From assembly GCA_002197545.1 (NCBI GenBank), contig NFUO01000574.1, forward strand, positions 1-49,533: 49,533 nucleotides of DNA, written 5' to 3'. Position numbers and translations under genes: made by a program. Positions 33,517 to 46,087 of the stretch are shown here, piece after piece. Source of the DNA: Acidobacteria subdivision 2 bacterium RH1 MAG20 (GTDB taxonomy: Bacteria; Acidobacteriota; Terriglobia; Terriglobales; Acidobacteriaceae). The notes under the pieces are model-generated. The model searched no databases. It saw only the letters and a program-made list of their open reading frames with translations, and had not been told where the DNA came from. Numbering within the stretch: the stretch's first letter is position 1; the number at the start of each line of letters is the position of its first letter.

Positions 33517-33593
33517 TGGTGGCGGTGGGCAGGATCGAACTGCCGACCTACGGGTTATGAGTCCGTCGCTCTAACCATCTGAGCTACACCGCC
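33517..33593 (-). tRNA. tRNA with CAT anticodon (probably elongator Met)
   Basis: A complete 77-base cloverleaf on the minus strand, from GGCGGTG (5') to CCA (3' end encoded at 33519-33517). The acceptor arm GGCGGTG pairs with CACCGCC. The D arm has AGCTCAGATGGTTAGAG. The anticodon stem and loop is GACGG, then ACTCATAAC with CAT at 33559-33557. The T arm has GGCAGTTCGATCCTGCC. Because CAT can be initiator or elongator methionine, or lysidine-modified isoleucine, the identity is a judgement: the first base pair and the D arm are not initiator-like (no C1-A72 mismatch). I favour elongator Met. Confidence 0.9.
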
Positions 33594-39974: not shown

Positions 39975-41168
39975 CTAGCCTAGCGTTGCAAAATACTCCC
40001 GCATCCGTTTCACACCCTCATCGATCACATCGTGCGAAACCGCATACGACAACCGAATGTGCTCATCCGTTCCAAACGCCTCGCCCGGAACAACGACGAC
40101 ATGCGCCTCGCTCAGCAGTTTTGCCGCCAGGTCCGAGGCTGACTTCACTCCGCCCTTGCCGATAAAGTTCTTCACATTCGGATAGACATAAAATGCTCCC
40201 TGCGGCACCGTGCACGTCAGCCCGGGAATCGTTTTGAAGCCATCCAGCACCTGGTCGCGCAGCTTGATGTAGTCAGCGCGCATCTCCGACACACATGCCT
40301 GCGATCCGCTTACCGCCGCAATCGACGCCCGCTGCACCATGCTCGCCGTATTCGAAGTGCTCTGCGACTGCAGCTTGCTCATCGCCGCAATAATCGGCTT
40401 CGGCCCGAGCGCAAACCCCGCGCGCCAGCCGGTCATCGCATAGGTCTTCGACAGCGATCCCAGCACCACAACATGCTCCTTGCAGTCCGTAAACGATCCG
40501 CCGCTGACAATCTCGCCCGTAAAGTTCAGGTAGACATAGCACTCATCCAGCAGCACATAGATCTCATTCTTATGCGCCAACCGGACAATAGCCTCCAGAT
40601 CCTCCGGCGATACCACCGCGCCCGAAGGATTCGACGGCGTATTCAAAACAATCGCCTTCGTCTTCGGTGTAATCGCGGCCTCGATCATCTTCGCCGTAAC
40701 CCGGAAGTTCTCCGCCTCGTCGCTCTCCACCAGCACAACCTTGCCGCCGGCATACTGAATAATGTCCTTGAACGAAACCCAGTACGGCACCGGCAGTATC
40801 ACCTCATCGCCATGGTCCACTAGCACCTGGATCGCATTGAACAACGCCAGCTTGCCACCCGTCGTAAACACGCACTCCTCCGGCGTATAGTTCGAGCCGA
40901 AGTCCGCCGCGTGACGGTCCACAATCGCCTTCCGAACCTCCGGAATCCCGGCAACGTTCGTATAGCGGGTAAAGTTCTTCTCAATGGCGTCGATTGCCGC
41001 GTCCTTGATGTGCCGCGGAGTCGCAAAGTGCGGCTCGCCCGCCCCAAAGTCCGCCAGGTTGACACCTTCCGACTTCAGCTTCAGCGCCGCCGCGGTGATC
41101 GCCATCGTCGCAGAAACTTCAATGCGGCCTATGCGGTCCGCAAATATCTTGGTAGCTGTTGTGCTCAT
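39975..41168 (-). CDS. aspC: Class I pyridoxal-phosphate aminotransferase (AspC-like)
   Basis: A 397-residue class I/II aminotransferase, most similar to the Ib-type aspartate/prephenate aminotransferases. The pyridoxal-phosphate lysine is K241 in GSLSKTYAMTGWRAG. YPY-type residues LPVPYWVSFKD near 127-135, NTPSNPSGAV near 176 and LDECYVYLNF near 207 are typical. The N-terminus, RIGRIEVSATMAI, is also family-like. It transfers amino groups between aspartate and 2-oxoglutarate and may act on prephenate. The ATG has AGAGGT ahead. It stands alone, 73 bases after manC on the same strand. Confidence 0.9.
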   Translation of the reverse strand: MSTTATKIFADRIGRIEVSATMAITAAALKLKSEGVNLADFGAGEPHFATPRHIKDAAIDAIEKNFTRYTNVAGIPEVRKAIVDRHAADFGSNYTPEECVFTTGGKLALFNAIQVLVDHGDEVILPVPYWVSFKDIIQYAGGKVVLVESDEAENFRVTAKMIEAAITPKTKAIVLNTPSNPSGAVVSPEDLEAIVRLAHKNEIYVLLDECYVYLNFTGEIVSGGSFTDCKEHVVVLGSLSKTYAMTGWRAGFALGPKPIIAAMSKLQSQSTSNTASMVQRASIAAVSGSQACVSEMRADYIKLRDQVLDGFKTIPGLTCTVPQGAFYVYPNVKNFIGKGGVKSASDLAAKLLSEAHVVVVPGEAFGTDEHIRLSYAVSHDVIDEGVKRMREYFATLG

Positions 41169-41247
41169 ACCTCTAGTTTGTCAGATTTACCCCGCAAGAT
41201 AAAGCGTTCCCTGCCATTTATCGCCCAAATCCCAGTTGAGAGACCAA

Positions 41248-42279
41248 TCAGGCCCTCCCCTCGCGCGCATCTTTCCAAATATCGATAGCCCCTTCCTGTG
41301 CATAACCATCGATGGCTTTCAACTCGGCATCCGTAAACTGTAGTTTCTGAACGGCATCGAGCGAGTTATCGAGCTGTTCCACATTCCGCGCTCCAATCAG
41401 CGCCGACGTAACCCGCTTGTCGCGAAGCACCCAGGCAATTGCCATCTGCGCCAGCGTCTGCCCGCGCCCCTGTGCGATGTCATTAAGCGCCCGCACACGC
41501 TTCAAATTCTCTTCCGTCAGAAAAGCCTTCTGCAGCGAACCTTCCGCCGCTGCGCGCGAGTTCTCCGGCACCCCATTCAGATACTTGCTCGAAAGCATCC
41601 CCTGAGCCAGCGGTGAAAACGCAATGCAACCCACACCCAATTCCTCCAGCGTGTCGAGCAGCCCCTTCTCTACCCACCGGTTCAGCATCGAGTACGACGG
41701 TTGATGAATCAGCAACGGCACGCCCTCGCTCTTTAAAATCTTTGCTGCCTCCCGCGTCCGCTCCGGACTATACGACGAGATCCCCACATATAAAGCCTTA
41801 CCCTGCCGTACCGCCTGCACAAGCGCTCCCATCGTCTCTTCCAGAGGCACATCCATCGTCGGACGGTGCGAGTAGAAGATATCGACATACTCAAGCCCCA
41901 TACGATGCAGGCTTTCCTCCAGAGACGCCAGCAGATACTTCCGCGATCCGCCATCGCCATAAGGTCCCGGCCACATGTCCCATCCCGCCTTCGACGAGAT
42001 CAGCAACTCATTCCGATGACCACCAAAATCCTTCCGCAAAATAGTGCCGAAGTTTTCCTCAGCCGATCCATACGGCGGCCCATAGTTATTCGCCAGATCG
42101 AAGTGCGTCACCCCACGATCAAAGGCTCGCCGAATCATCGCTCGGCCAGTCTCGAAGGAGTCAACGCCGCCGAAGTTCTGCCACAGCCCAAGCGATACCG
42201 GTGGCAGCACAATCCCCGACCGTCCGCACCGCCGAAACTGCGCCCCGTCATACCGCTTTGCATCGGCTACATAACTCAT
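41248..42279 (-). CDS. gpr: Aldo-keto reductase, YghZ/Gpr-like
   Basis: A 343-residue NADPH-dependent aldo-keto reductase of the YghZ type, which in E. coli reduces L-glyceraldehyde-3-phosphate and some methylglyoxal. The catalytic set is D61, Y66, K97 and H138 in DLANNYGPP, SSKAGWDMWPGPYG and FYSHR. WPGPYGDGGSRKYLLASL and ALYVGISSYSPERT match the YghZ subfamily closely. I start at the ATG at 42279, preceded by AAAGGG; the frame extends 23 unsupported codons upstream. The gene is single and points away from the ECF module. Confidence 0.9.
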   Translation of the reverse strand: MSYVADAKRYDGAQFRRCGRSGIVLPPVSLGLWQNFGGVDSFETGRAMIRRAFDRGVTHFDLANNYGPPYGSAEENFGTILRKDFGGHRNELLISSKAGWDMWPGPYGDGGSRKYLLASLEESLHRMGLEYVDIFYSHRPTMDVPLEETMGALVQAVRQGKALYVGISSYSPERTREAAKILKSEGVPLLIHQPSYSMLNRWVEKGLLDTLEELGVGCIAFSPLAQGMLSSKYLNGVPENSRAAAEGSLQKAFLTEENLKRVRALNDIAQGRGQTLAQMAIAWVLRDKRVTSALIGARNVEQLDNSLDAVQKLQFTDAELKAIDGYAQEGAIDIWKDAREGRA

Positions 42280-42508
42280 CCGCACACCCTTTCGTTCTAT
42301 GGATATCGCCGCGAACTCACCTAATCGCAGCTTCACAAAGTATGTCACAGCGAATTCGACCTCGTCCTAGGTCAAATGCCTCGAGTCTACCCATCTTTAA
42401 TCTGCTTATAAGCCACGACCCGGCATCAGAAAACCTATCCTCCCAAAGTGGTGAAATATGGCCGAATATCGCCCCAATACCCGCCGATATCGAACGAAAG
42501 ATACCCTA
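42280..42508. other. Gap between the aldo-keto reductase and the ECF module
   Basis: About 230 bases without a gene. A short inverted repeat, GACCT and AGGTC around CGTCCT, lies at 42358-42373 and could belong to the reductase promoter. Otherwise I see nothing up to the ECF-type promoter at 42509. Confidence 0.5.
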
Positions 42509-42537
42509 TGTCCAAACCGCTGGATTTCAAACGTCAT
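42509..42537 (+). promoter_or_regulatory. ECF-type promoter, copy 1
   Basis: TGTCCAAA at 42509-42516, a 15-base spacer and CGTCAT at 42532-42537. The same two blocks with the same spacing recur at 43178-43206. The form fits ECF-sigma promoters (TGTC at -35, CGTC at -10). It drives the decarboxylase-like gene starting at 42589; the leader that follows is shared with copy 2. Confidence 0.7.
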
Positions 42538-42588
42538 TGTAGTGGCGGACCATAATGCCCGCCCACAACCCATGATGGAGACTCCACT

Positions 42589-43155
42589 ATGAACCTTTCG
42601 AACTCGGACACATTCCTTCCTCCCATCGAAAATCCCCATGGCCCGATGATGAAATTCGTCTACGCCATGACACGCCGGCAATTCGGCAAAGTGCTTACAC
42701 CAGTAAAAGTAGTCTCCGCGCGAATGCCGCTTGCATTCGGCATGTTCTCTGCAAAGATCAGCAAGCTGGATAAAAAGCTGCAACTGCCGCCCGAGACCAT
42801 GCTGCTCATCCGTGAACAGGTGGCACGCCTTAACGTCTGCCTCTTCTGCATGGATATCGGCCGTTCATTCACAATCAAAGCGTCGATGAATGAAGCCAAA
42901 TTCGATGCCCTGGAACAGTACAGCACAAACCCTCTCTTCACCGACGCAGAACGCGCAGCGCTGGACTACGTGACAGAGCTGACAAGAGATAAAGATGTTA
43001 ACCCGGCAACCTTTGCTCGCCTGTCCCACTATTACTCCGAGCGCCAGATCTGCGAGATCGTCTGGCTCGTTGCCAGCGAGCACTTTTACAACATGACGAA
43101 TATCGGCCTGAACATTCACTCGGACATGCTCTGTGACATCAGCAGAAAAAAATAA
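42589..43155 (+). CDS. Carboxymuconolactone decarboxylase-like (AhpD fold) protein
   Basis: A 188-residue all-helical protein of the carboxymuconolactone decarboxylase/AhpD family. The redox CxxC motif appears as C84-L-F-C87 in NVCLFCMDIGR, with a nearby glutamate-rich helix and EHFYNMTNIGLNIHSD at the end. Relatives act as alkylhydroperoxidase-type reductases or decarboxylases. Genes of this family are often controlled by ECF41/42-type sigma factors. The ATG has GGAG ahead in a leader that is nearly identical to that of the next gene. An oxidative-stress role is plausible. It starts the ECF module with the DGPF gene and the sigma factor gene. Confidence 0.82.
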   Translation: MNLSNSDTFLPPIENPHGPMMKFVYAMTRRQFGKVLTPVKVVSARMPLAFGMFSAKISKLDKKLQLPPETMLLIREQVARLNVCLFCMDIGRSFTIKASMNEAKFDALEQYSTNPLFTDAERAALDYVTELTRDKDVNPATFARLSHYYSERQICEIVWLVASEHFYNMTNIGLNIHSDMLCDISRKK

Positions 43156-43177
43156 ATTCAGTGGCCAAAAGCGCGAC

Positions 43178-43206
43178 TGTCCAAATTGGGCGATGCCGGG
43201 CGTCAT
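43178..43206 (+). promoter_or_regulatory. ECF-type promoter, copy 2
   Basis: TGTCCAAA at 43178-43185, a 15-base spacer and CGTCAT at 43201-43206, matching copy 1 exactly in both blocks and in spacing while the spacer sequence differs. It precedes the DGPF gene and, through it, the sigma factor gene, so the sigma factor probably activates itself. Confidence 0.72.
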
Positions 43207-43254
43207 CATAGTGGCGGACATACTGCCGCCTAAAACCCACGACGGAGGATTCAC

Positions 43255-43602
43255 ATGCAATATCTATTACTGCTCTACGTAAACGAAGCTGGTTTCGCCA
43301 CGATGACGAAAGCTCAGCAAGAACAGGGACTGGCGGCCTATATGGCATACACAGAGGCGCTCACCAAAGCCAATGCCTACAAAGCCAGCAACCGCCTGCA
43401 ACCAATCTCGACTGCTACCACTGTGCGTATCGCAGATGGAAAGTCGCAGGTTCTCGATGGTCCCTATGTGGACTCGAAGGAGCAGTTAGGCGGCTTCTTC
43501 CTCATCGACGTGCCCGATCTCGATGCTGCGCTCTCATGGGCGGCCCGTTGTCCGGCTGCAAGCCATGGTGTCGTTGAAGTGCGTCCCATCTGGAGCATGT
43601 AG
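43255..43602 (+). CDS. DGPF/YCII-domain protein
   Basis: A 115-residue YCII-like (DGPF) protein. It begins MQYLLLLYVNE and carries VLDGPYVDSKEQLGGFFLIDVPDLDAALSWAARCP, the DGPF motif in its Y variant (DGPY). These small dimeric proteins commonly sit next to ECF42 sigma genes; their biochemistry is not established. Here the sigma gene starts 25 bases after its stop. The GGAG upstream is strong, and the promoter is the second ECF-type site. Confidence 0.88.
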   Translation: MQYLLLLYVNEAGFATMTKAQQEQGLAAYMAYTEALTKANAYKASNRLQPISTATTVRIADGKSQVLDGPYVDSKEQLGGFFLIDVPDLDAALSWAARCPAASHGVVEVRPIWSM

Positions 43603-43627
43603 GTGTGAGCTGCGACAGGATAAGTTT

Positions 43628-44878
43628 ATGAACATCCACGAAGGCGATGCGCAGGCGCGTATCACGGCAGACGCGGTTGCGCGTCGCAGCTACGGCAAGC
43701 TCGTCGCCTTTCTCGCAACACACACACAGGATGTCGCCGCCGCCGAGGACGCGCTCTCAGAGGCGTTCGCGTCGGCGCTGGCAGATTGGCCGCGAAATGG
43801 CTGTCCCTCGAACCCCGAAGCCTGGCTGCTGACCGTCGCCCGGCGAAAGGCGATCGATGTGCACCGCGCACGACATCGGTACGAGATTGCCGCCGAACAG
43901 TTGCAGGTAATGGCGAAAGGGCTCGACGCCGCCGCGACCGCAGTGGAGATACCCGATCAGCGTCTTGCAATGATGTTCGCCTGCGCACACCCTGCAATCG
44001 ATGCCGGCATTCGCGCACCATTAATTCTGCAGGTGGTGCTCGGGCTCGACGCGAAGACAATCGCATCGGCCTTCCTCACGTCGCCGTCGGCCATGGGCAA
44101 ACGGCTCGTCCGCGCCAAGGACAAGATCCGGCAGGCCCGCATCCCATTCACCGTCCCCGAGCGTGAGGAGCTTCCCGACCGGCTCGAGACGATATTGGAC
44201 GCCATCTACGCCGCCTTCACAGAAGGTTGGACCGACCCTGGCGGAACAGATGTCACTCGCCGCGATCTCACCGAAGAAGCCATGTTTCTGGCCCGGCTCG
44301 TAACCGAGCTGCTGCCGGAAGAGCCGGAGGCGCTGGGTCTGCTTGCACTCTTGCTCCATGCCGAAGCCCGACGCCGCGCACGGCGCAATCAGGATGGCGA
44401 TTTCGTGCCGCTCGCCGAACAGGACCCGGCCTTGTGGGATTCGCAGATGATCGATGAGGCCGAGGCCCTGCTCCAGCGTGCCAGCACTCGCCGCTTCATT
44501 GGCCGCTATCAGTTGGAAGGCGCATTACAGTCGGCACATGTGGACCGCTGCCGCACAGGTCATGCCAACTGGGCAGAGGTGGTGCAGCTCTACGACGCGC
44601 TATTCGCAGTCGCTGGCTCACCCGTAGTCGCTATTAACCGTGCCCTGGCTATCGCGGAGATGCATGGCGTTGACGCCGCTCTCGACTCCATGCCACAGGT
44701 AGCCGACGACGTGCGGCTCGCCGAGTACCAACCTTACTGGGCTACACGCGCAGAGTTGTTAGCCAGGAAAGGGGCGCATAGTGAGGCTCGTGAGGCATAC
44801 GAACTCGCAATCGGTCTCGAGCGCGACCCCGCTGTCCGCCGCTTCCTGCAGCAGCGGCAGTTGGCCTTGCCAGCTTGA
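43628..44878 (+). CDS. ECF42-type RNA polymerase sigma factor with TPR-like C-terminus
   Basis: A 416-residue ECF sigma factor of group ECF42, which has a long C-terminal extension instead of a separate anti-sigma factor. Sigma-2 (about 12-85) includes AAAEDALSEAFASALADWPRNGCPSNPEAWLLTVARRKAID, and sigma-4 (about 110-175) includes SPSAMGKRLVRAKDKIR. The remainder has repeated helical TPR-like units (EGWTD, GLLALLLHAEARR, RFIGRYQLEGALQSAHV, LYDALFAVAGSPVVAINRALAIAEMHG, YWATRAELLARKG). The ATG at 43628 has AGGA eight bases ahead; the longer upstream frame lies within the DGPF gene. The signal it senses is unknown. Confidence 0.9.
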   Translation: MNIHEGDAQARITADAVARRSYGKLVAFLATHTQDVAAAEDALSEAFASALADWPRNGCPSNPEAWLLTVARRKAIDVHRARHRYEIAAEQLQVMAKGLDAAATAVEIPDQRLAMMFACAHPAIDAGIRAPLILQVVLGLDAKTIASAFLTSPSAMGKRLVRAKDKIRQARIPFTVPEREELPDRLETILDAIYAAFTEGWTDPGGTDVTRRDLTEEAMFLARLVTELLPEEPEALGLLALLLHAEARRRARRNQDGDFVPLAEQDPALWDSQMIDEAEALLQRASTRRFIGRYQLEGALQSAHVDRCRTGHANWAEVVQLYDALFAVAGSPVVAINRALAIAEMHGVDAALDSMPQVADDVRLAEYQPYWATRAELLARKGAHSEAREAYELAIGLERDPAVRRFLQQRQLALPA

Positions 44879-44943
44879 TCCCTCTCGTTTAAAAAGCGCC
44901 GTCTGCCAATGCACTCCATACGTCCGGCACCACGGTTACGCAA

Positions 44944-45561
44944 CTACACACGCTTCCGCATCACCCAAGTAGTCATACACCGCACCCCCTGCACCACAGT
45001 AGTCTTCAAAGGGTCCACCAGCTCCCCACCCAACTCCTCTGTTAGTCGCGTCAGCAACGCCGCATCTACCAGATACCACTCCATCCCGCCCGGCATCAAA
45101 AACTTCCGTCCCGCTATTGGCTGAAAAGGCCGCTCAGTATCCATGCCAATCGTCGAAGCCAACCGGCAGAACAGCAGCCCACCCGGCTTCAGTACCCGCC
45201 ACATCGCCCGTACCATCGCCTCAAACTGTGCATCATCTTTCGCAAAATGCAGCACCGCGTTCGAGATCACCACGTCCGCAAACCCATCAGGAAACGACAT
45301 CGCCTCAACCGCTTCTACGCGAAAGTTCCCTGCCTCCAGTCTCGGCGTCAGTCTCGACGCCACCAACCTCACATGTTCTACGGCCTCGGCGCTCGCATCC
45401 ACGCCAAATACCTCATAACCCTCGCGCAGCAGATACACCAGGTTCCGCCCGCCCCCGCATCCTGCATCGAGCACCCGCATCCCAGGCGCAATATTCCCCC
45501 GCAGCAACTGGTCGAACAAATAAATGTCGATATTCCCGAACTGCTCCACCAGCTTCGTCAT
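44944..45561 (-). CDS. SAM-dependent methyltransferase (class I)
   Basis: A 205-residue class I methyltransferase. Motif I is VLDAGCGGGRN (about 30-40), followed by VFGVDASAEAVEHVR, AEAMSFPDGFADVVISNAVLHF and MWRVLKPGGLLFCRLAS. This set fits a methyltransferase-11-type enzyme acting on a small molecule or lipid; no target can be named. I use the ATG at 45561, though a GTG two codons upstream is possible. It lies 31 bases after coaD on the same strand, so the two are probably co-transcribed, and converges with the sigma factor gene. Confidence 0.83.
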   Translation of the reverse strand: MTKLVEQFGNIDIYLFDQLLRGNIAPGMRVLDAGCGGGRNLVYLLREGYEVFGVDASAEAVEHVRLVASRLTPRLEAGNFRVEAVEAMSFPDGFADVVISNAVLHFAKDDAQFEAMVRAMWRVLKPGGLLFCRLASTIGMDTERPFQPIAGRKFLMPGGMEWYLVDAALLTRLTEELGGELVDPLKTTVVQGVRCMTTWVMRKRV

Positions 45562-45592
45562 AGACACCCGATAAATATCAGTAATCCGTCAG

Positions 45593-46087
45593 CTAAATCC
45601 GCGCCGGAACCTTGGCCTTCAACCGCTCCACCACCAGCGGCGGGACCAGCGCCGTCACATCCCCACCCAGTTGAAAGACGCCCTTGATCAGCCGCGAGCT
45701 GACATAGGTATATTTCTCCGCCGGCATCATGAACAGCGTCTCCAGCTCCGGATCGAGCTTCCGGTTCATCATTGCCATCTGGAACTCATATTCATAGTCC
45801 GAGATCGCCCGAATCCCCCGCAGCACCGCCTTCGCGCCCTGCTGCCGCGCAAAGTCCACCAGCAGCCCATCGAAGGTCATCACCGACACATTCCTGAACC
45901 CAGCCACCGCCTCGGCGATCATCTCCTCGCGCTCCGGAACGGTAAACAGCGGCGTGCCCTTCTCAGAGTTGCGCAGGATAGCCACCACCAGGTGGTCCAC
46001 AATCTTCGCGCCCCGCGCAATCAGGTCAAGGTGCCCGTTCGTGAGCGGATCAAAGGTTCCCGGATAAATCGCCTTTACAGTGTGCAT
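45593..46087 (-). CDS. coaD: Phosphopantetheine adenylyltransferase
   Basis: A 164-residue CoaD that adenylylates 4'-phosphopantetheine to dephospho-CoA. The N-terminus MHTVKAIYPGTFDPLTNGHLDLI has the nucleotidyltransferase motif with T16 and H19. The C-terminal segment YVSSRLIKGVFQLGGDV holds the family SSR-type residues. GAKAVLRGIRAISDYEYEFQMAMMNRKL confirms the family. The start is the ATG at 46087 with GGAAG ahead; the frame runs a further 150 codons upstream without conservation. It is followed by the methyltransferase gene and diverges from satP. Confidence 0.94.
   Translation of the reverse strand: MHTVKAIYPGTFDPLTNGHLDLIARGAKIVDHLVVAILRNSEKGTPLFTVPEREEMIAEAVAGFRNVSVMTFDGLLVDFARQQGAKAVLRGIRAISDYEYEFQMAMMNRKLDPELETLFMMPAEKYTYVSSRLIKGVFQLGGDVTALVPPLVVERLKAKVPARI

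Follow-up and report, generated by a model that had tools for sequence, protein, structure and literature searches.

Besides S. meliloti, bacteria known to carry an ECF42 sigma factor accompanied by a DGPF (YCII) gene include S. venezuelae (Sven_0747) and P. putida (ECF-10). In S. meliloti, two operons that carry TGTC..CGTC promoters are raised by RpoE10, its ECF42 factor (PMC6180224). CMD genes are controlled by another group, the ECF41 factors, through TGTCACA..CGTC promoters, and in B. licheniformis and R. sphaeroides these are CMD-type genes with a CxxC motif (PMC3426412). A third kind of described element is the 5'-terminal stabilising stem-loop of ompA and papA, paired at or next to the 5' end; its effect is explained by the reliance of RppH and RNase E on single-stranded 5' ends (PMC3997798).

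The locus analysed here resembles each of these systems and differs from each. Like ECF42 systems such as that of RpoE10, it combines sigma domains and a long C-terminal extension with a DGPF gene directly upstream, a TGTC..CGTC promoter and no anti-sigma gene among the neighbours profiled; unlike ECF42 systems as described in the literature examined, it contains an AhpD/CMD-like gene as a further unit with a matching promoter, and both units have hairpin leaders. With ECF41 systems it shares a CMD-type gene with CxxC under a TGTC..CGTC promoter, but its -35 block is TGTCCAAA, not TGTCACA, and its sigma factor carries DUF6596 and, at a threshold of 0.001, no SnoaL family, the C-terminal mark of ECF41 factors. 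Like the leaders of ompA and papA, its own are predicted to be base-paired at the 5' end or beside it, which should impede RppH and RNase E; unlike them, hairpins of this type are tied to one sigma-factor class, lie at a fixed distance from the -10 block and occur in at least three phyla, with a presumed effect on stability. The reading we favour, with slightly more confidence than doubt, is that of an ECF42 module with matched CMD and DGPF-sigma units whose messages begin with a stabilising stem-loop.

The window, that is, the whole stretch of DNA analysed, comprises 49,533 nucleotides of an Acidobacteriota contig. The three genes of the module lie on its + strand and encode an AhpD/CMD-like protein of 188 aa (42589–43155), a DGPF (YCII-domain) protein of 115 aa (43255–43602; PF03795, 79.3 bits, cut-off 24) and an ECF42-type sigma factor of 416 aa (43628–44878). 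The DGPF gene ends 25 bases 5' of the sigma gene, adjacent to it as in the ECF42 group. The sigma factor has ECF sigma domains 2 and 4, also a feature of that group; PF04542 (35.8 bits) and PF20239 exceed their cut-offs, and PF08281 at 19.4 bits is under its cut-off of 25.7. Its C-terminal extension of about 230 residues carries DUF6596 (116.5 bits), with no TPR family reported at 0.001; in the ECF42 group the extension has about 200 residues with TPR, and activity depends on it. It should be mentioned that many enterobacterial plasmids carry a short gene matching only a part of this extension (residues 254–382, 31.5% identity), in some cases annotated as a DUF6596 protein. The opposite strand encodes an aldo-keto reductase and a methyltransferase, and a tRNA-Met gene (33517–33593, - strand) is the sole tRNA gene found in the window.

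The 188-residue protein gave no Pfam match at 0.001 (PF02627, none at 0.1) and only sub-cut-off NCBIfam matches, one of them to a peroxidase-related subfamily. It is similar to the debrominase Bmp8 (E 8.6e-8) and to the structure of a CMD family protein (2e-7). Among its 20 close homologues, 14 matched PF02627 at E<=0.1 (best 2.3e-5), although 17 also weakly matched the unrelated DNA_pol3_delta model (best 0.0014); Cys84 and Cys87 of the CxxC motif are invariant in all 20. AhpD/CMD-like appears a reasonable name. The viral collection contained no relative of this protein.

A search of the whole window for TGTCCAAA-N15-CGTCAT revealed two exact copies on the + strand, at 42509–42537 (-35 block 42509–42516, -10 block 42532–42537) and 43178–43206 (-35 block 43178–43185, -10 block 43201–43206). 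There was no third match in the window, and 100 shuffles gave none (mean 0, largest 0), which rules out a chance repeat. The first copy precedes the AhpD/CMD-like gene and the second the DGPF gene adjoining the sigma gene, so that the earlier description, made from the letters alone, of identical blocks and spacing with different spacers before a decarboxylase-like gene and a DGPF-sigma pair was accurate. The N15 spacers agree at only 5 of 15 positions, and alignment of the spacers, of the 80 bases upstream and of the first 60 coding bases of the two units was no better than alignment of shuffled sequences. Recent copying of the whole upstream block is ruled out, since spacers and flanks are unrelated.

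Scanning species genomes for the sigma protein yielded 91 relatives, and the best 80 of the 91 loci were used. In these 80 loci and the window, TGTC-N19-CGTC was present within 160 nt upstream of 50 readable DGPF/CMD starts, including the two window leaders and the CMD leader of locus L001, and absent from 24; the -35 block is kept before DGPF genes in related loci. In 18 of the 24 starts CGAC replaces CGTC with the same -35 block and spacing, and two others are N-masked at the position of the element. The CGAC form thus appears to be a -10 variant of the ECF42-type promoter class. It was seen before DGPF genes, at the same spacing, in many alphaproteobacterial and a few other loci (L035, L045, L047, L054, L056, L060, L061, L064, L069, L077 and Mesorhizobium loci).

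We also searched whole genomes, some of which were counted in several of the searches, for TGTCSAAA-N15-CGTCAT, with the backwards pattern as control. There were 10 sites in 7 of 7 genomes (backwards 0), 14 sites in 12 of 297 Acidobacteriota genomes (backwards 4), 39 sites in 32 of 42 genomes holding related sigma loci (backwards 0), 32 sites in 29 of 147 genomes from the family of L009 (backwards 1), 11 sites in 7 of 200 from the family of L013 (backwards 3) and 13 sites in 13 of 199 from the order of L040 (backwards 0). The stricter TGTCCAAA-N15-CGTCAT occurred at 25 sites in 22 of 300 genomes from the family of L001 (backwards 2). No genome contained more than three elements in any search. 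The motif does not stand at many unrelated genes, which would have told against the sequence-only reading: of the 14 Acidobacteriota sites, 10 have a DGPF, sigma or CMD gene as neighbour (at L113 the site directly follows a sigma gene), and the four elsewhere equal in number the matches of the backwards control. As a chance control, the sites away from these genes are not clean: several have hairpins and sensible genes downstream.

In many Acidobacteriota and Proteobacteria the putative element is thus found 5' of DGPF(YCII)-sigma genes, and both window copies look like ECF42-type promoters, with TGTC..CGTC before the DGPF gene as is characteristic of the ECF42 group. In this respect the proposal that the repeat consists of two ECF42-type promoters beside a DGPF gene holds well; it was incomplete, however, in that a hairpin-bearing leader is duplicated as well.

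Similar elements were noticed at other genes. In one genome family (L159–L165, motif at position 1501, either strand) TGTCGAAAT-N15-CGTCAT stands 5' of YceI-like genes and is followed by hairpins; the spacers mostly end in CCCGTT, and the PF04264 profile was checked in L160. Elements 5' of a GST gene (L157, and L180 by eye), a RibD_C-domain gene (L192) and a MAPEG gene (L193) are candidates for other TGTC/CGTC regulons. In L199 and L200 (motif position 1501) the element and a strong hairpin precede a gene, which in L199 has no Pfam match.

The leaders of the two window copies, from CGTCAT to ATG, are identical in 38 of the 51 columns of their alignment, which scores 22, whereas 300 shuffles average -4.3 and reach 10.5 at most. 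Each is about 50 nt long and can fold as GGCGG-loop-CCGCC, at 42544–42563 in the CMD message and at 43213–43230 in the DGPF-sigma message, both on the + strand. The first G of each stem coincides with the predicted +1 (see below); folded from there, bases 1–5 are paired at 0.99–1.00 in the first leader and at 1.00 in the second, and in neither does the stem take in the ribosome-binding site. Folded singly, the two leaders are unremarkable (z -1.2 and -1.9). The CMD leader of L001 is 3 bases shorter, with bases 2–3 still paired at 0.97. A known RNA family is ruled out for the hairpin: at the gathering score of Rfam 15 the window yielded tRNA only and nine related loci yielded nothing, and three sub-threshold matches in 42400–43400 (E 3.8–8.6) were taken as chance.

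To compare the leaders of relatives, we kept DGPF/CMD starts lying 62–160 nt from the motif and removed leaders at least 80% identical. The starting point was a set of 120 unique motif sites, of which 76 adjoin DGPF, CMD or sigma genes; 58 non-redundant leaders (54 DGPF and 4 CMD) remained. In a first set of 49 leaders, from which the short leader L080 was dropped, the mean folding z was -1.5, and pairing probability rose to 0.9 in two arms around a loop at 0.09–0.17 (shuffles 0.43–0.51). At least five contiguous Watson-Crick pairs were found in 35 of the 58 leaders (60%), against 13% in shuffled leaders (300 mononucleotide shuffles, maximum 28%) and 14% in a coding control; in the other 23 a stem of 5 bp is absent. 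The axis of the hairpin is 18.5 +/- 0.9 bases downstream of CGTC (zero-based index 17.5). Exchanging the 3' halves between leaders weakened the mean MFE from -10.9 to -8.25 kcal/mol, and 0 of 1000 permutations reached the native value. In alignment A1, 59.1% of cells pair compared with 51.6% after shuffling (0 of 500), and the covariation score is 0.285 compared with 0.189 (0 of 500) and with at most 0.200 when the 3' side is slid. Pairs changed on both sides showed no excess in the alignment (8 vs 7.7 shuffled), and RNAalifold found no consensus structure in the 58 leaders, perhaps because loop lengths differ. For the separate class of 18 CGAC leaders, many of which come from a single genus, the mean z is -1.55, with 10 of them below -1.

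A covariance model, R1, was built from 18 seeds chosen for pairing, so that the scores of seeds are not evidence. In 237,574 bases its best match, at E 0.003, was the window CMD leader, itself a seed, followed by the leader of L060 (not a seed, E 0.005). The window DGPF leader, also not a seed, matched weakly (E 1.3), and at E<=10 the model missed the leaders of 14 of the 15 loci tested outside the window, L060 being the exception.

Further leaders came from plasmids. Of 193 plasmid records with a DGPF match we examined 20 plasmid-borne loci, picked for diversity; TGTC..CG[TA]C was present in 12 and no readable element in 8. In six of the 12 a hairpin lies at +1 or close to it, the sequences being unrelated: Streptomyces L212, Paraburkholderia L220, Neorhizobium L221, Asticcacaulis L222, Embleya L261 and Tsukamurella L263. 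The hairpin is weak in Rhodococcus L225, and none was seen in three cyanobacteria, Vibrio L218 and Streptomyces L259. The arrangement of promoter and hairpin thus appears to span Acidobacteriota, Pseudomonadota and Actinomycetota. Hairpins follow the element at non-DGPF genes too, namely CMD in the window and an MFS transporter gene in L137. In L022 (3799–4337) the element of the DGPF gene itself is closely preceded by a DUF1761 gene, which has a second element with a hairpin on its 5' side. No 5' hairpin was seen in the S. meliloti leader of the SMc01149 type, nor in that of SMb20029, the one ECF41 leader examined, which in this respect differs from the window leaders.

The predicted start sites rest on S. 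meliloti. The mapped starts of SMb20475 and SMc01149 (ECF42) and of SMb20029 (ECF41) read as the ninth base after CGTC, the start being taken as the last printed base of the promoters in the table, which lower case confirms for SMc01149; for the YCII gene SMc01151 the motif and the mapped start overlap, and this gene was not raised when RpoE10 was overexpressed (PMC6180224). The message of SMb20475, a target of RpoE10, begins with A followed by a 9-bp stem (z-score alone -1.03). With the start at the ninth base, the first four bases of the 58 leaders are paired at 0.79 (shuffled 0.40). This is the best of ten offsets for 5'-end pairing, the next being close (0.77), and it leaves at most one unpaired 5' base in 49 of the 58 leaders. 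In the 18 CGAC leaders pairing at the same start is 0.84 and peaks three bases later (0.88). For the window we accordingly predict +1 at 42544 and 43213, from which both messages would have the stem-loop at their 5' end.

The existence of the hairpin is well supported; its function we infer. One alternative, which we consider unlikely, is a binding site at which a protein, sRNA or ligand would control how the messages are translated or degraded, with the frequent 5'-side bulge as part of the recognition; a protein of the module such as DGPF might then close a feedback loop. Bulges in 76 leaders do favour the 5' side (26, against 8 on the 3' side; mostly single C or A), and a GCA..TGC upper stem part recurs in many of them. 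For a recognition site, however, the stem sequence is largely free, with 23 different outer 5-mers among 35 stems, loops vary from 3 to 14 nt, and the ribosome-binding site is outside the stem in both window leaders. Besides the bulged forms, 24 of the 76 leaders have internal loops, 15 none, and 3 lack a central hairpin.

Still less probable is that the dyad works as DNA, either as a repressor operator over the start site or by taking part in initial transcription. Its position over the predicted +1 is one often bound by repressors, and G-U mismatches are as common as A-C mismatches (48 and 41), counts that do not separate RNA from DNA; yet the half-sites are often offset by a one-sided bulge, and the stem sequence varies even within Acidobacteriota, unlike the operator of one repressor. 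A terminator is ruled out as the role of the hairpins, as the + strand has no terminator-like site in 41000–45600. A stabilising stem-loop would fit the stem at the predicted +1, the free sequence and the open ribosome-binding site better than a protein site or an operator would.

We then consider the CMD gene. Only one of the 80 related sigma loci, L001, has a close CMD homologue adjacent, in the order CMD-DGPF-sigma; seven of the 80 have less than 1.2 kb upstream and could not show such a gene. In L001 the CMD gene is preceded by TGTCCAAA-N15-CGTCAT and the DGPF gene by the same element ending in CGTCAC. CMD homologues were found in 19 of 298 sampled genomes from the order of the L001 genome; 18 of 20 CMD matches were used, the gene start being missing in L106 and L109. 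The element, with at most one mismatch and the exact 15-nt spacing, is present 5' of 4 of the 18 homologues (L091, L098, L104 and L108), where L091 belongs to the L001 genome, the chosen reference centre of the CMD sample. The outer parts of the sigma loci contained no element at this tolerance in 902,544 positions; an earlier random-window control (mean 0.35–0.40, maximum 3 of 18 against the 4 observed, at most one mismatch) was contaminated because many loci had been picked for the motif. An ECF42 sigma factor of at least 60% identity is encoded in 7 of the 19 genomes with a CMD homologue, including those of L091, L098 and L104, and genome G275 has CMD, a DGPF gene (32%) and a divergent sigma gene (33%) in the same order. 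One case speaks against the link: in genome G043 (L108; L250, 5259–5733) an intact ECF42-type promoter stands 5' of a frame-broken CMD copy, with no ECF42 sigma factor in the genome at E<=1e-60; this is possibly a relic.

It is therefore plausible, from gene order and promoter match, that the CMD gene is a second ECF42 target. The suggestion that the decarboxylase-like gene belongs to the module gains from the recurrence of the element at its homologues and from the L001 gene order, but adjacency in a single sigma locus out of 80 indicates an uncommon addition. Two other CMD homologues (L101 and L107) have ECF41-like TGTCACA elements instead, and because ECF41 factors control CMD genes, such genes seem to change between the ECF42 and ECF41 sigma groups. 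That a sigma factor other than the neighbouring ECF42 factor reads the window CMD gene, for instance an ECF41 factor with a CGTC -10, would agree with these two homologues and with the known ECF41 targets, but is very improbable, the -35 block of the gene being identical to that of the DGPF-sigma copy and its leader matching the DGPF leader too.

Under the favoured reading of an ECF42 module with stabilised messages, one sigma factor would presumably read both copies. Once active, it would direct RNA polymerase to start at both promoters, so that more AhpD/CMD-like redox-type protein, DGPF protein and sigma factor would be made, the last by autoregulation. In both units the hairpin would begin at the predicted +1 or no further than about 1 base from it. 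The paired end would shield the messages from 5'-end-dependent decay, as RppH and RNase E require an unpaired 5' end, and the downstream ribosome-binding site would stay open. Since no terminator-like site intervenes on the + strand, the CMD transcript may also run on into DGPF-sigma and add to the positive feedback. More tentatively, and as a possibility rather than an expectation, ECF42 may use a two-part start element, a promoter plus a 5'-terminal RNA hairpin at fixed distance. The sequence of the hairpin would be free, with selection acting on its pairing and position in at least three phyla; initiation and message fate would then both be set by one sigma factor, and new targets such as CMD would join with both parts.

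The ECF42-DGPF module itself is already known, and the CMD gene with its matched promoter is a variant of it. The accessible parts of the open-access literature gave no description of a hairpin leader or of a matched CMD unit for ECF42; the founding ECF42 papers, outside that scope, may note the hairpin. ECF42 factors are widespread, and the literature examined names neither their signal nor a role for the DGPF partner. The CMD gene ties ECF42 to a redox-type target known from ECF41. The conserved hairpin predicts start sites and can help to distinguish genuine targets from fortuitous promoter matches; it also suggests that one sigma-factor class builds transcript stability into its regulon.
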